DNA from: Caldilineales bacterium
GTDB lineage: Bacteria; Chloroflexota; Anaerolineae; J102
DNA: 36,452 bases
Direction of reading: 5' to 3'
Assembly: GCA_019695115.1 (NCBI GenBank)
Contig: JAIBAP010000059.1
Span: 1 to 36,452 of the forward strand
Made by a program: the position numbers and the translations under genes. The notes below the pieces were generated by a model. The model saw only the letters and a program-made list of their open reading frames with translations. It did no database searches and was not told the DNA's origin. Positions 28,239-36,262 of this stretch are shown piece after piece. Position 1 is the first letter of the stretch. Every line of letters begins with the position of its first letter.

Positions 28239-28304
28239 TTGACAAGCCGCGGATTCTACTGTATGGTTTGCCACAATGAAATCGATACCATGAAATCGAT
28301 ACAT
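28239..28304 (+). promoter_or_regulatory. Promoter with two tandem LacI-type operator sites (first URO-D gene)
   Basis: TTGACA (28239-28244), 17 bp, TATGGT (28262-28267). Two abutting 14-bp sites follow: TGAAATCGATACCA (28277-28290) and TGAAATCGATACAT (28291-28304). Both have the central CG of LacI-family operators and the same left half as the perfect palindrome before the LacI-URO-D gene. Confidence 0.75.
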
Positions 28305-28333: not shown

Positions 28334-29452
28334 ATGAACTCGAAAGAAAGAATGCTCACGGCCCTGCACCGGGGCAAGCCCGACCGCCTGCCCGTGACCG
28401 TGCATCAGTGGCAGCAGTATCATCTGGACAAGTATCTGGGCGGGGTGGAGCCGCTGGAGGCCTTCCAGATTGTGGGGATGGATGCCTCGATCCAATATTT
28501 CGCCGACATGGGGCAGTTCTGGCTGGTGGACGCCGACTTCAGCAAGTTCTCGACGCCAGAATGGCGAGACGAGATGACGGTCGTCAGCAGCGACCCCGAC
28601 AACCGCATCAACCACCATGTGGTCACCACGCCCGAAGGGGTGTTGACCTACAAGACGGCCGGCAACCTCATGACCACCTGGGTGACGGAATACCTGGTCA
28701 AACACGACGAGGACATCGACCTGATCCGCAAGTACATGCCCGTCCCGGCCCTCGACCCCAAACCGGTGGCCGAACTCTACGACCGCATCGGCGACAAGGG
28801 CATCTTGCGCGGCTTCGTCTGGGGCGACCAGGCGGGATGCTGGCAACACGCCTGCTGCCTGCACCCCACCGAGGACATGATCCTGGCCTGCATCGACAAA
28901 CCCGACTGGGTGCACGAATTCCTCGGCATCCTGTTGGAGAAGAAACTGCGCTCGGTGGAGACGATGGCCGGGGCGCGCTTCGACCTGATCGAGACCGGAG
29001 GCGGCGCCGCCTCCTCGACCGTGATCTCGCCCGCCCTGCACGCCGAATTCTGCACGCCCTACGACCGCCAGCTGCATGACGCCCTGCATGGCGCTGGCTT
29101 CGACCTCATTGCCTATCATACCTGCGGCGGCACGTTCAAGATCGAGAATCTGATCATGGCCAACGGCTGCGATGTCTCGGAGACGCTGGCGCCCAAAAGC
29201 ATCGGCAGCAACCAGGAGCCGTGGGATTTCCAGGCCAAAGTTGGCGGCCGGCTGGCGGTGATCGGCGGCATGGATCAGTTCTCGGTGCTCAGCGATGGCA
29301 CGCCCGCACAGATCCGGGCGATGGTTTTCAAGCTGTTCGAGACGGTGGGCAGAGATGGCGGCTATGTCTGCTCGGCTTCCGACCATTTCTTCGAAACGCC
29401 GGTCGAGAACCTGCGCATCTTCGCCGAGGCCGCGCACGAGTGCGTGTATTGA
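28334..29452 (+). CDS. URO-D/MtaA-like methyltransferase family protein (HxC type)
   Basis: A 372-aa protein of the uroporphyrinogen decarboxylase superfamily. It starts with ERMLTALHRGKPDRLPV, the family N-terminus, but lacks the RQAGR substrate motif of true HemE, so it is probably a corrinoid- or cofactor-dependent methyltransferase-like enzyme. The zinc motif of MtaA-type enzymes (HxC plus a distant Cys) is present: H262-T-C264 (YHTCGGT) and C346 (GGYVCSASDHF). The end PVENLRIFAEAAHE is typical. CAGGAG precedes the ATG. It is transcribed from a promoter with tandem LacI-type sites and is the most complete metal-site version of the four URO-D domains here. Substrate unknown. Confidence 0.87.
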   Translation: MNSKERMLTALHRGKPDRLPVTVHQWQQYHLDKYLGGVEPLEAFQIVGMDASIQYFADMGQFWLVDADFSKFSTPEWRDEMTVVSSDPDNRINHHVVTTPEGVLTYKTAGNLMTTWVTEYLVKHDEDIDLIRKYMPVPALDPKPVAELYDRIGDKGILRGFVWGDQAGCWQHACCLHPTEDMILACIDKPDWVHEFLGILLEKKLRSVETMAGARFDLIETGGGAASSTVISPALHAEFCTPYDRQLHDALHGAGFDLIAYHTCGGTFKIENLIMANGCDVSETLAPKSIGSNQEPWDFQAKVGGRLAVIGGMDQFSVLSDGTPAQIRAMVFKLFETVGRDGGYVCSASDHFFETPVENLRIFAEAAHECVY

Positions 29453-30179: not shown

Positions 30180-30244
30180 TTGACAAACGCTCTGGGCTGC
30201 GTTATCATCGCCATGATGAAATCGATTTCATGATATCGATTTAC
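30180..30244 (+). promoter_or_regulatory. Promoter with two tandem LacI-type operators (LacI-URO-D gene)
   Basis: TTGACA (30180-30185), 17 bp, TATCAT (30203-30208). Two abutting 14-bp sites follow: TGAAATCGATTTCA (30217-30230), a perfect palindrome that fits the LacI/CcpA consensus TGWAANCGNTNWCA at all positions, and TGATATCGATTTAC (30231-30244), more degenerate. They sit at about +3 to +30 and predict autorepression. Confidence 0.8.
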
Positions 30245-30294: not shown

Positions 30295-32580
30295 GTGACC
30301 ACCATTAGCGATGTCGCTAAACGAGCGGGCGTTTCGCCAGTCACGGTTTCACGGGTCATCAACGACCTGGGAAACGTGAGCCTGGCCACGCGCGAGCGGG
30401 TGGGGTTGGCGATCCAGGAATTGGGCTATGTGCCGAGCGGGGTGGCGCAGAGCCTGCGCTCGAAACGGACGCGCTCGCTGGCCCTGATCGTGCCCGACAT
30501 CCAGAACAGCTTCTGGACGACGGTGGCGCGTGGGGTCGAGGACGCCGCCCAGAGCAAGGGCTACTCGGTCTTCCTCTGCAACACCGACGAAAACCCCGCC
30601 AAGCAGCGACGCTATCTCGAGGTGGTGATCGGCCAGCGGGTCGATGGCGTCATCATCGCCCCCTACGATTCCGACGGCGCCAACCTGGCGCCGCTGCGCG
30701 ACCGCGAGATTGCCACGGTCGTCATCGACCGCCACATCGAGGGGTGGGACACCGACACGGTCAACAGCGACTCGATCGCCGGGGCGCGGGCGCTGACGCA
30801 ACATCTCCTCGGCCTGGGCCACCAACGCATCGCCATCATCACCGGCCCGGCCACCACCACCACCGCCGCCGACCGCGTGACGGGCTATCGCCTGGCCCTG
30901 AACGAAGCCGGCCTGACGCCTGACGAGCGGCTGATCAAATATGGTGAGTTCCGTTCGGCGGTGGGCGAGCGGCTGACGCACGAGGTCTTCGACGCCGGGC
31001 TGGCGCCGACGGCCATCTTCGCCGCCAACAACGTCATCGCCATCGGCGTCATGGCCGCCCTGGAAAAACGCGGGCTGCGCGTCCCGCACGACATCGCCCT
31101 GGTCTGTTTCGACGACCTGCCCAACACCTCGCTGCTGTTCCCGTTCTTCACCGTGGCGGCCCAACCGGTGTACGAAGTCGGCGTCAATGCCGCCCAATTG
31201 CTGTTCAGCCGGCTGGAAGCCGAGGCCCCGCTGCACCCGCGCCATGTGGTGCTTCCCACCCGTCTCGTCATCCGCCACTCCTGCGGCAGCAAATGGCAGC
31301 GCGGCATCGACTTTGGCATCAGCCTGCCCCTGCCTGCCGCCGGCCAAGACGAGACCCGGCTGGTGCCGCCGCTCGGCCCGGCCGCGCTGCGGTTGGCGGC
31401 GATGGGATGGGACGGCGCCGCCGCTGGCGAGACCCGGCCGACCAGTTACGACAACTCTGACATCGACCGGCTGCTCAAGGCCCTGCGCCATCAGGAACCC
31501 GACCGCATCCCCCACCTGGAGTTCTGGATCAGCAGCCGCCCGGTGCTGGAATATGTGCTGGAACGACCGCTGGAGAACCCAAGCCCGGACGAGAAGACGG
31601 GCGAGCCGCTCATCCAGCCGGAGGAACACATCGAGTTTGCACAACGGTTGGGCATGGATGCGGTGACCTGCCGTTTCATCTGGCGGCCCAACAATGTCTA
31701 TCGCCAGGCGTCGGACGGGAGCAGGCACTATGTGGATGGCACGGTCAAGACCTGGGCCGACCTGGAGAACCTGGAGCCGCCGCCGTCGCTGTTAGATCAA
31801 CTCAACCATCTGGAGCGTTATCTGCGGGCCAGCCAGGGCACGGGGGTGGGTGTGGCGCCCGATTTCAGTTCGTTTTTCGACAGCGCCCTCCTGGCCGTTG
31901 GCATGCAGGACGCCCTCTACCGCTTCCACGATGACCGCGCCTTCCTGGAGCATCTGATGGATACGCTTCTGGCCCACCAGGAGCGCGTCGTGCAGGCAGT
32001 CTGCGACCGTTTTGGCGATGATCTGGCCTTCGTCCTGATCAACGATGACGTGGCTCACAATGCCGGCCTCCTCATCCACCCCGACATGTTCGCCCAGATC
32101 TTCCCGCACCGCCTGCGCCGGCTGATCACCCCGGCCAAAGAGCGCGGCAAAGCGGTGGTCTTCCACTCGGATGGCAGGCTCGATCGCCTGCTGCCGCTGC
32201 TGCACAGCGCCGGTGTAGACGCCGTCCACCCGGTCGAGCCGGAAGCCAACGACATCCGGGAGCTCAAACACGAGTGGCAAGGCAAACTGGCCTTCATCGG
32301 CAATATCCCCACCTTGCTGCTGGCGCACGGCAACGCCGCCAGCATCGAGGAGCGTGTGCGCGTTCAGTGCCAGCAATTGGGGCCAGGCGGGGGCTATGTG
32401 CTTGGCAGCTCGACCAGCATCATGGAGGGCATCCCCCCGCGCAATTTCGTGACCATGACGCAGGCCGCGCACAAGTACGGCCGCTATGGCTCACTCGGCA
32501 GCCTGGCCTGGCAGTTCGACCCCGTGGTTTCGAGCAACGGCCGGGTGACGGCCGGCACGACGAAGGAGATGACAAGATGA
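30295..32580 (+). CDS. LacI-type repressor fused to a URO-D/MtaA-like methyltransferase domain
   Basis: A 761-aa protein with two complete halves. Residues 2-55 form a LacI helix-turn-helix and hinge (TISDVAKRAGVSPVTVSRVIND, GVAQSLRSKRT). Residues 60-340 form a periplasmic-binding-protein-like sensor domain ending in the usual LPTRLVIRHSC. A linker of about 55 residues follows. Residues 395-745 form a URO-D-like barrel (LLKALRHQEPDRIPHLEFW). Its metal site reads H624-S-D626 instead of HxC, and the distal Cys is replaced (GGYVLGSSTSI). The frame is continuous and no start codon with a ribosome binding site occurs at the junction. The GTG start (30295) follows a weak GAGG. It overlaps the next URO-D gene by 4 bp. 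It probably controls the tandem operators at 28277 and 30217. Confidence 0.88.
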   Translation: MTTISDVAKRAGVSPVTVSRVINDLGNVSLATRERVGLAIQELGYVPSGVAQSLRSKRTRSLALIVPDIQNSFWTTVARGVEDAAQSKGYSVFLCNTDENPAKQRRYLEVVIGQRVDGVIIAPYDSDGANLAPLRDREIATVVIDRHIEGWDTDTVNSDSIAGARALTQHLLGLGHQRIAIITGPATTTTAADRVTGYRLALNEAGLTPDERLIKYGEFRSAVGERLTHEVFDAGLAPTAIFAANNVIAIGVMAALEKRGLRVPHDIALVCFDDLPNTSLLFPFFTVAAQPVYEVGVNAAQLLFSRLEAEAPLHPRHVVLPTRLVIRHSCGSKWQRGIDFGISLPLPAAGQDETRLVPPLGPAALRLAAMGWDGAAAGETRPTSYDNSDIDRLLKALRHQEPDRIPHLEFWISSRPVLEYVLERPLENPSPDEKTGEPLIQPEEHIEFAQRLGMDAVTCRFIWRPNNVYRQASDGSRHYVDGTVKTWADLENLEPPPSLLDQLNHLERYLRASQGTGVGVAPDFSSFFDSALLAVGMQDALYRFHDDRAFLEHLMDTLLAHQERVVQAVCDRFGDDLAFVLINDDVAHNAGLLIHPDMFAQIFPHRLRRLITPAKERGKAVVFHSDGRLDRLLPLLHSAGVDAVHPVEPEANDIRELKHEWQGKLAFIGNIPTLLLAHGNAASIEERVRVQCQQLGPGGGYVLGSSTSIMEGIPPRNFVTMTQAAHKYGRYGSLGSLAWQFDPVVSSNGRVTAGTTKEMTR

Positions 32581-33641
32581 CACTCAGTTCTCGCCAGCGC
32601 GTGCTGACGGCGTTTTCGCACCAGGAACCGGATCGGACGCCCTGCTGGCTGGGCGCTTCGCCGGAATGGAAGCAATTGGCGCGCGACTACCTGGGCCTGG
32701 CCGACGACGAGGCCCTGCTGCACTACCTGGGCGATGACTTCCGCCGGGTGTTCAGCAAGTATGCCGGGCCGGACGAACGCAGCCCGGACAAGATGCTATC
32801 GCCCGAGGCCACCTGGCGCTCGCCCTTCGACATCGAACGACACGGCTATGGCTATGGCATGCCCCTGGTCAGTCCCTTGAAGAACGCCACCCTGGCCGAG
32901 GTCCACGCCTTCCCCTGGCCCGACCCGGAGTGGATGGACGTCTCGCACATCCGCGACGAGGCGCGGCAATACGAACACGAGTACGCCATCCTCGGCGGCG
33001 AATGGTCGCCCTTCTGGCACGATGCCATCGACCTGCTCGATTTCGACGGCCTCATCTACCAGATGTACGACGACCCGGAGGTGGTGGATGCGGTGATGAT
33101 GTACACGTCCGAGTATTACCTAGCCGTCAGCAGGCGGATTTTCGAGGCCGTGGGCGACGCCATCGACATCTTTTTCATCGGCAACGACTTCGGCGCCCAG
33201 ACCGGGCCGATGCTCAGCCCCCCGCTTTTCCGCCGCTTCGTCCTCCCACATCTGCAGAAATTCGCCGATCTCGGCCATGAATTTGGCAAGCGGGTGGTGC
33301 TGCACACCGACGGCTCGCTCCGCCCCCTCCTGCCCGACATGATCGCCATCGGTCTCGATGGCATCCAATCGGTGCAACCCTATTGCACCGGCATGGCGCT
33401 GGACGGCCTCAAGCGGGACTTTGGCCACGACCTGACCTTCATGGGCTGCGTCGATACCCAGGCCCTGATCGAGACCACGGCCGAGGGCGCCCGCCAGCTC
33501 ACCCTGCGCACCCTGGAGACGATGATGCCCGGCGGCGGCTTCATCGCCTCGCCCAGCCACGATTACCTGCTCCCCGAAACCCCGGTCGAAAACGTCATCG
33601 TCATGTACGAGACGATCCGGGAGTGTGGGGAATATCGGTGA
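32577..33641 (+). CDS. URO-D/MtaA-like family protein (HxD type)
   Basis: A 354-aa URO-D-superfamily protein starting RQRVLTAFSHQEPDRTPCW. It lacks the HemE RQAGR motif. The metal-ligand position reads H243-T-D245 (VLHTDGSLRPLL), as in the preceding fusion protein, and the distal segment GGFIASPSHDYLLPETPVENV has no Cys. The ATG overlaps the upstream stop (ATGA) and AAGGAG lies at the right distance, so it is translationally coupled to the LacI-URO-D protein. The two HxD proteins may work as a pair. Reaction unknown. Confidence 0.87.
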   Translation: MTLSSRQRVLTAFSHQEPDRTPCWLGASPEWKQLARDYLGLADDEALLHYLGDDFRRVFSKYAGPDERSPDKMLSPEATWRSPFDIERHGYGYGMPLVSPLKNATLAEVHAFPWPDPEWMDVSHIRDEARQYEHEYAILGGEWSPFWHDAIDLLDFDGLIYQMYDDPEVVDAVMMYTSEYYLAVSRRIFEAVGDAIDIFFIGNDFGAQTGPMLSPPLFRRFVLPHLQKFADLGHEFGKRVVLHTDGSLRPLLPDMIAIGLDGIQSVQPYCTGMALDGLKRDFGHDLTFMGCVDTQALIETTAEGARQLTLRTLETMMPGGGFIASPSHDYLLPETPVENVIVMYETIRECGEYR

Positions 33642-33737: not shown

Positions 33738-34076
33738 ATGAAACGCTACGGTCAAGTCATCGGCGTCAAACCAGAACGATTGGAGGAATACAAACGGTAT
33801 CATGCTGCCGTCTGGCCGGAGATTTTGGATATGATCCGGCAGTGCAATATCGTCAATTACTCGATCTATTACAAAGAGGTAGCTCCAGGAATGCCGCTGC
33901 TTTTCGCCTTCTTCGAATATATTGGCGATGATTTTGACGCCGACATGGCCAAGATGGCTGCCGATCCCATGACGCAAAAGTGGTGGGATGTGATGATGCC
34001 CATGCAAGCGCCGGTGCCCTTGCGCGCAGATGGCGAATGGTGGGCGAATATGGAAGAAGTCTTCCATACAGATTGA
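33738..34076 (+). CDS. rhaM: L-rhamnose mutarotase
   Basis: A 112-aa protein of the RhaM (RhaU) family, which interconverts alpha and beta anomers of L-rhamnose (dimeric alpha/beta ferredoxin-like fold). Seen: MKRYGQVIGVKPERLEEYKRYHAAVWPEIL with the conserved Tyr and His, NIVNYSIYYK, LLFAFFEYIGDDFDADMAKMAADPMTQKWWDVM with the Trp-Trp pair, then MEEVFHTD at the end. Full length. Strong ribosome binding site AAAGGAG. No rhamnose isomerase or kinase is in the window, so it may act on another 6-deoxyhexose or a methylated rhamnose. Confidence 0.92.
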   Translation: MKRYGQVIGVKPERLEEYKRYHAAVWPEILDMIRQCNIVNYSIYYKEVAPGMPLLFAFFEYIGDDFDADMAKMAADPMTQKWWDVMMPMQAPVPLRADGEWWANMEEVFHTD

Positions 34077-34190: not shown

Positions 34191-34214
34191 TCCCCTTTCC
34201 AAAGGATGCTACAC

Positions 34215-35384
34215 ATGGAACGCTCCGCCAAAACATTAGCCAAAGTCGAAAGAATGCGCCGGGCGCTGCATCACCAGGAGGCCGATCGAGTGCCGATCAG
34301 CGATTTCTTCTGGGGCAGCTTCGTCAACCGTTGGCGCCAGGAGATGGGCCTGCCCGCCGATGCCGACATCTACACCTACTACGACCTCGATTGGCAGGTC
34401 ACCATCCCCAACATGGACCCGCACATCAAGTCGTTCGAGACGCTGAAAGAGACGGACGAGGATGTGGTGGTCAAGACCGGTTTCGAGGCCACCATCCGCA
34501 AAAAGTTCGCCGACCCCATGCCCGAATGGCTGGAGTTCGGCCTGACCAGCATCGAGCAGACCGCGACTTTCCAGTTTGACGACCCCTGGGACGAGCGCCG
34601 CTATTTCAGGGCCGGGGACAACCAGATCGCCGGGGTGGGCGACGGGTTCGCCCGCAACTCGCCCGCCTGGGTAGAGACAGTCAAAAAGCTGCACCCGGAT
34701 TTCGCCGTCTTCGGCAGTGTGTGCGAGGCCAACGAATACATGACCCGGATCGTCGGCCCGGAGAACAATCTGCTGTGGGTGGCGCTCTATCCCGACGAAT
34801 ACGCCCGCTTCATCGAACGCACAATGGAGTTCGCCATCGGCGTCCTGCAGGCCCAGATCAAGGCTGCCGATGGGCTTCTGGATGGCATGGTCATCTGGGG
34901 CGATGTGGCCTACAAGAAGGATGTCTTCTTTGCCCCCGACTGGTGGCGGGCGCACTACAAGCCCTATCTGACCGAGATGGTGCGGATTTGCCACGAGGCC
35001 GACCTGCCGGTGATCTACCACGGCTGCGGCAATGTCAAGCGCATCATCCCCGACTTCATCGAGACCGGCATCGACGCCTACAACCCGCTGGAAGCGAAAG
35101 CCGGGCTGGATGTGGTGGATCTGCGCCGGCAATACGGCCACACTTTCGGCTTCTGCGGCAACATGAGCGTGATCGACTGGGCCGAGCTCAGCCCCGCCGA
35201 ACTCAAGCCCATCGTTCTCCGCAAGCTGAACGCGGCCAAAGGCGGCGGCATGATCTTCCAGTCTGATCACTCCGTCCCTACCAACGTCTCCGCTGCCAAC
35301 TACGATTATGTGGTCAAGCTCGTGCGCGAGTGGGGGCAGTATCCGCTGAAGTTGGGCGAGTATGATATTCCTGATTTGAATTGA
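34215..35384 (+). CDS. URO-D/MtaA-like methyltransferase family protein (HxC type, third ligand missing)
   Basis: A 389-aa URO-D-superfamily protein with the N-terminal pattern RMRRALHHQEADRVPISDFFW. It has H269-G-C271 (YHGCGNVKR), matching the HxC part of MtaA-like zinc sites, but the distal segment reads GGMIFQSDHSVPTNVS without Cys. It also shows DGMVIWGDVAYKKDVFFAPDWW, a segment found in sugar-catabolic URO-D relatives. ATG 34215 is chosen because AAAGGA lies 9 nt upstream; the ATG at 34206 would be too close. A repeat element lies before it, and an array separates it from the creatininase gene. Confidence 0.87.
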   Translation: MERSAKTLAKVERMRRALHHQEADRVPISDFFWGSFVNRWRQEMGLPADADIYTYYDLDWQVTIPNMDPHIKSFETLKETDEDVVVKTGFEATIRKKFADPMPEWLEFGLTSIEQTATFQFDDPWDERRYFRAGDNQIAGVGDGFARNSPAWVETVKKLHPDFAVFGSVCEANEYMTRIVGPENNLLWVALYPDEYARFIERTMEFAIGVLQAQIKAADGLLDGMVIWGDVAYKKDVFFAPDWWRAHYKPYLTEMVRICHEADLPVIYHGCGNVKRIIPDFIETGIDAYNPLEAKAGLDVVDLRRQYGHTFGFCGNMSVIDWAELSPAELKPIVLRKLNAAKGGGMIFQSDHSVPTNVSAANYDYVVKLVREWGQYPLKLGEYDIPDLN

Positions 35385-35482
35385 GTAGACAAGGAAACAA
35401 GTAGACAAGTAGACAAGGAAGAGAAGTCAACTTGCAGCTTGCCACCCGCCACCTGCCACCCGCCACCCACCACCTGCCCCCC
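35383..35482. repeat. Composite tandem array touching the creatininase start codon
   Basis: Six 8-bp units (35383-35430; GAGTAGAC, AAGGAAAC, AAGTAGAC twice, AAGGAAGA, GAAGTCAA) then seven 7-bp units (35431-35479; CTTGCAG, CTTGCCA, CCCGCCA, CCTGCCA, CCCGCCA, CCCACCA, CCTGCCC) and a C-run ending at ATG 35483. No Shine-Dalgarno sequence remains. Same modules and order as 23667-23785 on the other strand. Confidence 0.93.
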
Positions 35483-36262
35483 ATGCACCTCCACCGCCTC
35501 CTACCCCACCAGTTCCGGCAAGCCATCGATGAGAAATGGCCGTTGCTCGCGCCCACCGGCTGCATCGAATATCATGGCCCGCACCTGCCGCTGGGCGTGG
35601 ATACGATGATCGTCGAGGAGTTGCTGGCGCGGGTGAGCAAGCGCATGCCGTGCATCGTGGCCCCGCCATTGTGGTATGGCCCTGCCAGCTACGCCGTCTC
35701 TGGCCCGGAGCTGGGCTCGCTGGACGTGAGCACCGAGCGTTTCGGGCGACACGTGAAGGACGTGCTGGCCGGGTTCTGGGACATGGGCTTCCGGTGGATC
35801 ATCGTCGGCGTCCACCATCAGGGCCTGGACGGGCCGGAATCGCTGGCCATCCGCCAGGCCGCTGCCGAGGTCATGTTCGAGCGCAGCTACGCCGAGCGCG
35901 GCAAAGCCTGGTGGGGCAAGGCCCCGTTGGAGGCGCAGGACAACGTCTTCGAGCGCATCCAGGTCTGGCCCAGCGTGCTGCCCGAGGCGGCAGCCCAAAA
36001 GATCGAGATGGGCGACCACGCCGGCTTCTACGAAACCTCGTACATCCTGGCCGCGCATCCAGAGCTCGTCGATCTGAACAAGTTGGGCATGAATCCCCCC
36101 TGGTACACGAACACATCGACCAGCAGAGCCCGCGAGGCCACAGCCCAGGCCGGTGAACGGATGCTGGGGATCATGGCCGACGCCTGGGTGAGCAGACTCT
36201 CGGCCATGACCCGCCCTAAACGTCCTTCTCCGAATGAAGTGACAGTTAGCGGTTTGTTTTAG
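35483..36262 (+). CDS. Creatininase-family metal-dependent hydrolase
   Basis: A 259-aa protein of the creatininase superfamily. E29, H31 and D40 (PTGCIEYHGPHLPLGVDT) fit the metal-binding spacing of the family, and GDHAGFYETSYILAAHPELVDL matches the later conserved region. The usual NGHGGN motif is replaced by VGVHHQGLDG. Creatininases open cyclic amides; some relatives open cyclic sugar or keto-inositol intermediates (IolN-type 3-dehydro-scyllo-inosose hydrolase), and the HHQ variant with WYGPASYAV may point to that side. The context of rhamnose mutarotase and URO-D proteins also suggests carbohydrate catabolism. The start lacks a ribosome binding site because a C-rich array precedes it. Confidence 0.85.
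   Translation: MHLHRLLPHQFRQAIDEKWPLLAPTGCIEYHGPHLPLGVDTMIVEELLARVSKRMPCIVAPPLWYGPASYAVSGPELGSLDVSTERFGRHVKDVLAGFWDMGFRWIIVGVHHQGLDGPESLAIRQAAAEVMFERSYAERGKAWWGKAPLEAQDNVFERIQVWPSVLPEAAAQKIEMGDHAGFYETSYILAAHPELVDLNKLGMNPPWYTNTSTSRAREATAQAGERMLGIMADAWVSRLSAMTRPKRPSPNEVTVSGLF

Follow-up and report, generated by a model that had tools for sequence, protein, structure and literature searches.

The window, the whole 36,452-nucleotide stretch analyzed here from the Caldilineales genome G000, carries a 761-codon open reading frame on the forward strand (30295-32580, +) that joins a LacI-type repressor to a URO-D barrel. A GTG codon at 30295 is the sole start that yields a whole helix-turn-helix (HTH) domain. 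Pfam places the LacI HTH at residues 3-48, a Peripla_BP_1/3 sugar sensor at 60-330 and URO-D at 391-728, all above their gathering cut-offs. The N-terminal PF00356 HTH followed by a PF00532/PF13377 effector-binding domain assigns the protein, and all 20 fusions described below, to the LacI family. The URO-D domain (PF01208) scores 62.3 bits against a curated cut-off of 23.9 and spans profile positions 4-346 of 346, which places it as a full-length member of that superfamily. The initial annotation had described both halves as complete and separated by a linker of about 55 residues, and the protein agrees with it on each point. The barrel falls far below the cut-off of the MtaA/CmuA methyltransferase family (TIGR01463; 27.6 bits vs 235.4), and the position taken as equivalent to the H-x-C metal site of those enzymes is occupied by H624-S625-D626, the HxD that had been reported.

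Structure prediction had been proposed as a check. An AlphaFold model computed from a 34-sequence alignment shows two confident folded parts, the LacI part and the barrel (mean pLDDT 84.6, pTM 0.54), with a weak linker between them in which residues 333-340 and 372-383 fall below a pLDDT of 50. Given the low pTM and this linker, the mutual orientation of the two parts is not fixed by the model. The best Foldseek hits are CcpA, PurR and RbsR, and the putative sugar triad of the sensor consists of R194, N246 and D273.

The fusion gene is followed by a second URO-D gene (URO-D 2), whose start overlaps the fusion stop (ATGA at 32577), and then by the genes listed in Table 1. Against the NCBIfam equivalog for L-rhamnose mutarotase, the rhaM-like protein does not reach the cut-off. 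The creatininase-family gene lies 190 bp from the contig end, which falls within a single operon as judged from relatives. The operon appears to continue on contig C68 of the same genome, which opens with the next operon gene and is therefore probably the adjacent contig. On the other side, a gap of about 840 bp separates the fusion gene from the end of an additional URO-D gene (28334-29452).

Table 1. Features of the locus, in positions of the window (+, forward strand;., no strand assigned).
Feature	Position	Strand	Basis
Operator-like site TGAAATCGATACCA before upstream URO-D gene	28277..28290	.	Sequence
Upstream URO-D gene, possible regulon member	28334..29452	+	Pfam; operator-like site
Operator, perfect palindrome TGAAATCGATTTCA, 14 bp	30217..30230	.	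Site type conserved ahead of 17/20 fusion genes
Second, abutting, less conserved operator TGATATCGATTTAC	30231..30244	.	Abutting pair in relatives
LacI-URO-D fusion gene, 761 aa	30295..32580	+	ORF, Pfam, AlphaFold, relatives
LacI helix-turn-helix, residues 3-48	30301..30438	+	Pfam PF00356
Periplasmic-binding-protein-like sugar sensor, residues 60-330	30472..31284	+	Pfam PF13377/PF00532
Linker, residues 333-386, with conserved SLPL...LVKPL-type motif	31291..31452	+	Alignments
URO-D barrel, residues 387-735	31453..32499	+	Pfam PF01208, AlphaFold model
H624-S625-D626, taken as equivalent of MtaA HxC position	32164..32172	+	Alignments
Second URO-D gene of operon (URO-D 2)	32577..33641	+	Pfam; same order in relatives
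rhaM-like mutarotase gene	33738..34076	+	PF05336
Third URO-D gene of operon (URO-D 3)	34206..35384	+	Pfam; relatives
Creatininase-family gene	35432..36262	+	Pfam; relatives

The fusion is real and is not confined to this genome. Whole-genome searches in Chloroflexota (400 genomes of the phylum, 396 of the class, 20 of the order) recovered 20 intact full-length copies in Anaerolineae, the window copy included; in every one a single frame holds HTH, sensor and URO-D, and each of the Pfam families is recognized (20/20). A possible 21st copy, truncated in G401 where its contig ends, lies outside this count. A peptide-pattern search of contigs had returned one locus only, a limit of that method. 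None of the 20 frames contains a stop, and at none of the joints is there a conserved internal start preceded by a ribosome-binding site; a chance arrangement or artefact does not produce such a set. The initial annotation had named separate genes in relatives and a lost stop codon as grounds for doubting the fusion, and the relatives instead bear it out. An assembly error or lost stop is ruled out by the same joint in 20 genomes, among them the one-contig genome G621. It is scarcely conceivable that a sequencing error joined two genes or that an internal start yields a separate URO-D protein: a GC-rich frame does by itself favor long open frames, but the identical joint and the conserved linker motif speak against both.

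Pieced together across relatives, the fusion gene is the first gene of an operon that includes a sugar ABC transporter, a B12-binding corrinoid protein, a standalone URO-D protein (UroD1) and L-fucose isomerase (FucI). On one contig, G405 carries the fusion, URO-D 2, the rhaM-like gene, URO-D 3, the ABC transporter, the corrinoid protein and UroD1. From URO-D 2 onward G401 has the same order, with a creatininase gene after URO-D 3 and fucI after UroD1; in G000 the operon is split between the end of the window and C68. FucI of G000 scores 1034 bits against an L-fucose isomerase equivalog cut-off of 850. The corrinoid protein is of a methyltransferase-cognate type and has both B12-binding domains; its DxHxxG motif is present in 13/13 sequences. 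Its gene directly follows the fusion in four relatives (G649, G428, G478 and G656), belongs to the same operon in others, and lies on a separate contig in G000. The G000 genome also encodes two corrinoid-activating (RACo-type) proteins and pterin-binding family proteins; no GH29 fucosidase was found in it.

Other members have a different setting. In G621 and G462 the fusion lies beside genes for an FGGY kinase, fucI and DUF4432, and G457 has a similar context but no fucI in the stretch seen; none of the three has a corrinoid gene in that stretch. The G662 and G453 genomes, both incomplete assemblies, gave no fucI match. From gene neighbors we infer that UroD1 and the corrinoid protein demethylate O-methyl-fucose or a similar 6-deoxysugar, with FucI taking the freed sugar; the identity of the sugar is a guess from the same neighbors. 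An alpha-amylase-like gene of about 1170 amino acids follows the fusion and corrinoid genes in the two relatives scanned (G478, L097:12307-15840; G649, L092:4080-7574).

The 14-bp palindrome at 30217-30230 to which the initial annotation had drawn attention proves to be conserved before the relatives' fusion genes and is mostly doubled. In the window, a distance of 64 bp separates the end of TGAAATCGATTTCA, which TGATATCGATTTAC abuts, from the fusion start. Sites of this type, allowing up to three mismatches, lie within 150 bp of 17 of the 20 fusion genes, against 0.23 expected and a maximum of 2 in 200 Markov resamples; no such site precedes the standalone uroD1 gene (0/12 genes). Two operators abut exactly in 14 of the 20, an arrangement found in none of the resamples (0 in 200). 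At the level of sequence, the site is a palindromic operator with a central CG near its target genes, as is typical of the LacI family. These conserved operators are most naturally read as a sign that the operon is autoregulated, and the fusion protein very probably represses its own operon. The operator-like site TGAAATCGATACCA, which ends 43 bp before the upstream URO-D gene, suggests that the regulon may extend beyond the operon.

In the tree, the fusions' LacI parts group together as a single clade (support 97/94), from which we consider that the fusion probably arose once. Its sister (97/96) is an unfused fuc-operon LacI of G416 (L047:16967-18208), which carries part of the linker motif and then an early stop, without URO-D. 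This stop lies 68 bp before fucI, leaving no room for a barrel, and the G416 genome (79% complete) gave no close UroD1 match although fucI is present. The G416 protein is a possible pre-fusion form; either a C-terminal tail preceded the barrel or G416 lost the barrel. In the URO-D tree one branch (94/92) parts fused from standalone copies, with longer branches on the fused side, and the order of the two forms is not settled by it. The fused barrel, 61% identical to UroD1, is related to this protein of the same operon but has diverged from it.

Comparison of the two forms points to a changed role for the fused barrel. Fused copies keep 48-85% of the 155 positions that are invariant in 12 standalone copies. 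The pocket was delimited by a rule, as the strand ends of the model, rather than from a structure with bound ligand; in 19 of the 20 its positions are retained less often than the remainder (p 1.4e-4, a guide only as the copies are related). G000 keeps 28 of 36 invariant pocket positions, so that some catalysis may be possible there. The HxD of the enzyme-like half is no special trait of the fusion: the standalone copies have it in 12/12 cases and the fused copies mostly lose it. The Asp is kept in four of the 20 (G000, G417, G621 and G536), the His is lost in seven, and the motif reads Y-T-R in G428, G478 and G656. Over the 36 pairs among nine genomes with both copies, mean identity is 76% for the standalone protein, 51% for the fused barrel and 70% for the LacI part, and in no pair does the fused barrel match the conservation of the standalone copy. 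Where not saturated, dN/dS of the fused barrel is about 0.06-0.27, and purifying selection still acts on it. Faster drift combined with low dN/dS is more in line with an altered function than with decay.

The sugar triad is intact in 16 of the 20 fusions. In G428, G478 and G656 (L096, L097 and L098) it is broken, with R194 and N246 replaced by C and S. Here the URO-D half is 81-89% conserved vs 70-86% for the sugar sensor, and its dN/dS is 0.06 for G478/G656. In these members the barrel may do all of the sensing or catalysis, and with the triad broken one mechanism may not fit all members.

The reading that we prefer, with a probability of roughly 0.5, is that the fusion represses its own operon and has two sensors, the second recruited from the methyltransferase of that operon. 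The HTH would bind one or both palindromes at 30217-30244, and the ligand of the LacI sensor would be a sugar, with L-fucose or a similar 6-deoxysugar the probable candidate. The C-terminal barrel would be a duplicate relative of UroD1, the protein encoded beside the corrinoid protein, turned from an enzyme into a sensor for the predicted demethylation substrate of UroD1, a methylated sugar. The operon would be released when the methylated sugar, the free sugar or both are present. The repressor function, the identity of the sugar, demethylation by UroD1 and a ligand for the URO-D domain are all points that we infer. That the URO-D half senses a methylated substrate or cofactor, as first proposed, is plausible. 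G416, whose LacI has no barrel and whose genome gave no UroD1 match, is in line with this explanation. Against it speak the fusions with no corrinoid gene in the stretch seen (G621, G462, G457), the incomplete genomes with no fucI match (G662, G453), the broken triad of G428, G478 and G656, the largely kept pocket of G000 and the failure to find a GH29 fucosidase in that genome.

The barrel may alternatively act as a trigger enzyme, still a working methyltransferase for the operon's corrinoid protein, with catalysis or substrate turnover controlling DNA binding. We regard this as possible but doubtful. The four relatives with the corrinoid gene directly downstream of the fusion, in which no close standalone UroD1 was found, would suit such an enzyme, as would the broken triad and better-conserved URO-D half of G428, G478 and G656. 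HxD and most of the pocket are kept in G000 and G417, and UroD-family methyltransferases can do without zinc, as in CdmB (PMC13222342). However, the Asp is lost in 16/20 copies and the His in 7/20, which include all three of G428, G478 and G656, and at least nine genomes hold both forms, with the standalone copy always the better conserved. It is unlikely that the URO-D half docks the corrinoid protein and reads methylated versus free B12; the repressor would then gauge the demethylation machinery and not a small molecule, a function that would have replaced sugar sensing in the clade of the G428 type.

A purely structural part is also quite unlikely. The barrel would here only join LacI dimers into tetramers that bind cooperatively at abutting operators, with no ligand. 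The abutting pairs before 14/20 fusions, the stronger drift of the pocket than of the rest of the barrel, and the homodimeric state of its relative CdmB (PMC13222342) are in keeping with this. Yet in a study of 110 operons (PMC4052901) ordinary LacI-family regulators, too, have sites that abut or overlap at a spacing of about 13 bp, so the barrel is not needed for such sites, and S526, F527, D584 and C459, at or near the predicted pocket, never change in the 20 fused and 12 standalone copies. Finally, the barrel could be a superfluous, decaying passenger of an accidental fusion. Its faster drift points that way, as does a segment around residues 472-485 that is missing from several copies, with larger losses in G662 and G550; 20/20 intact frames at deep divergence, amino-acid change well below synonymous change and a URO-D domain that Pfam still detects in 20/20 copies make it very improbable.

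The fusion shares its HTH, sensor, operator type and sugar triad with LacI/GalR repressors such as RbsR, PurR, CcpA and LacI. These stop where its linker begins, whereas the fusion adds a complete 350-residue barrel. The LacI family has been described as rigid in domain structure (PMC4052901), and one survey counts GalR/LacI among the families promiscuous in their companion domains (PMC5882156); in view of that survey, we do not claim that other LacI fusions are absent. The fold of the barrel is that of the UroD superfamily corrinoid methyltransferases (MtaA, O-demethylase methyltransferase I, CdmB). A model of standalone UroD1 aligns with UroD (Z 29.7, rmsd 3.1, 318 aligned) and with the MtaA-type structure 4ay7 (Z 26.8, rmsd 3.5, 312 aligned). 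Genes for UroD-type O-demethylase methyltransferase I adjoin a corrinoid protein gene, as is seen in relatives of the fusion. MtaA differs in its HxC, and the fusion, besides scoring far below the MtaA/CmuA cut-off, is joined to a repressor.

In MocR regulators, which pair a GntR HTH with an aminotransferase-like part, an enzyme fold likewise serves as sensor (PMC5320631). In these regulators the enzyme-like fold is the only sensor, whereas in the fusion a different enzyme family is added to a complete LacI sensor. As the initial annotation had supposed of this form of regulator, no LacI fused to URO-D is described in the open-licence literature searched, and no relevant open-licence paper was found on LacI-kinase fusions or on corrinoid demethylation of methylfucose. 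The fusion represents a conserved three-part LacI member whose third part is related to a protein of the operon that it seemingly controls. Fused copies range from nearly intact to heavily altered beside a standalone relative, making the change from enzyme to sensor traceable. Corrinoid-dependent methyl removal from deoxysugars in Anaerolineae would be an apparently undescribed route.

The G000 genome also shows a large expansion of URO-D-like genes, with more than 20 matching places in a search of the genome with its own sequence, and seven places with a B12-binding_2 domain. A 1196-aa open frame that contains a LacI-sensor-like match (G000:C3:134126-135016) may encode another multi-domain regulator.
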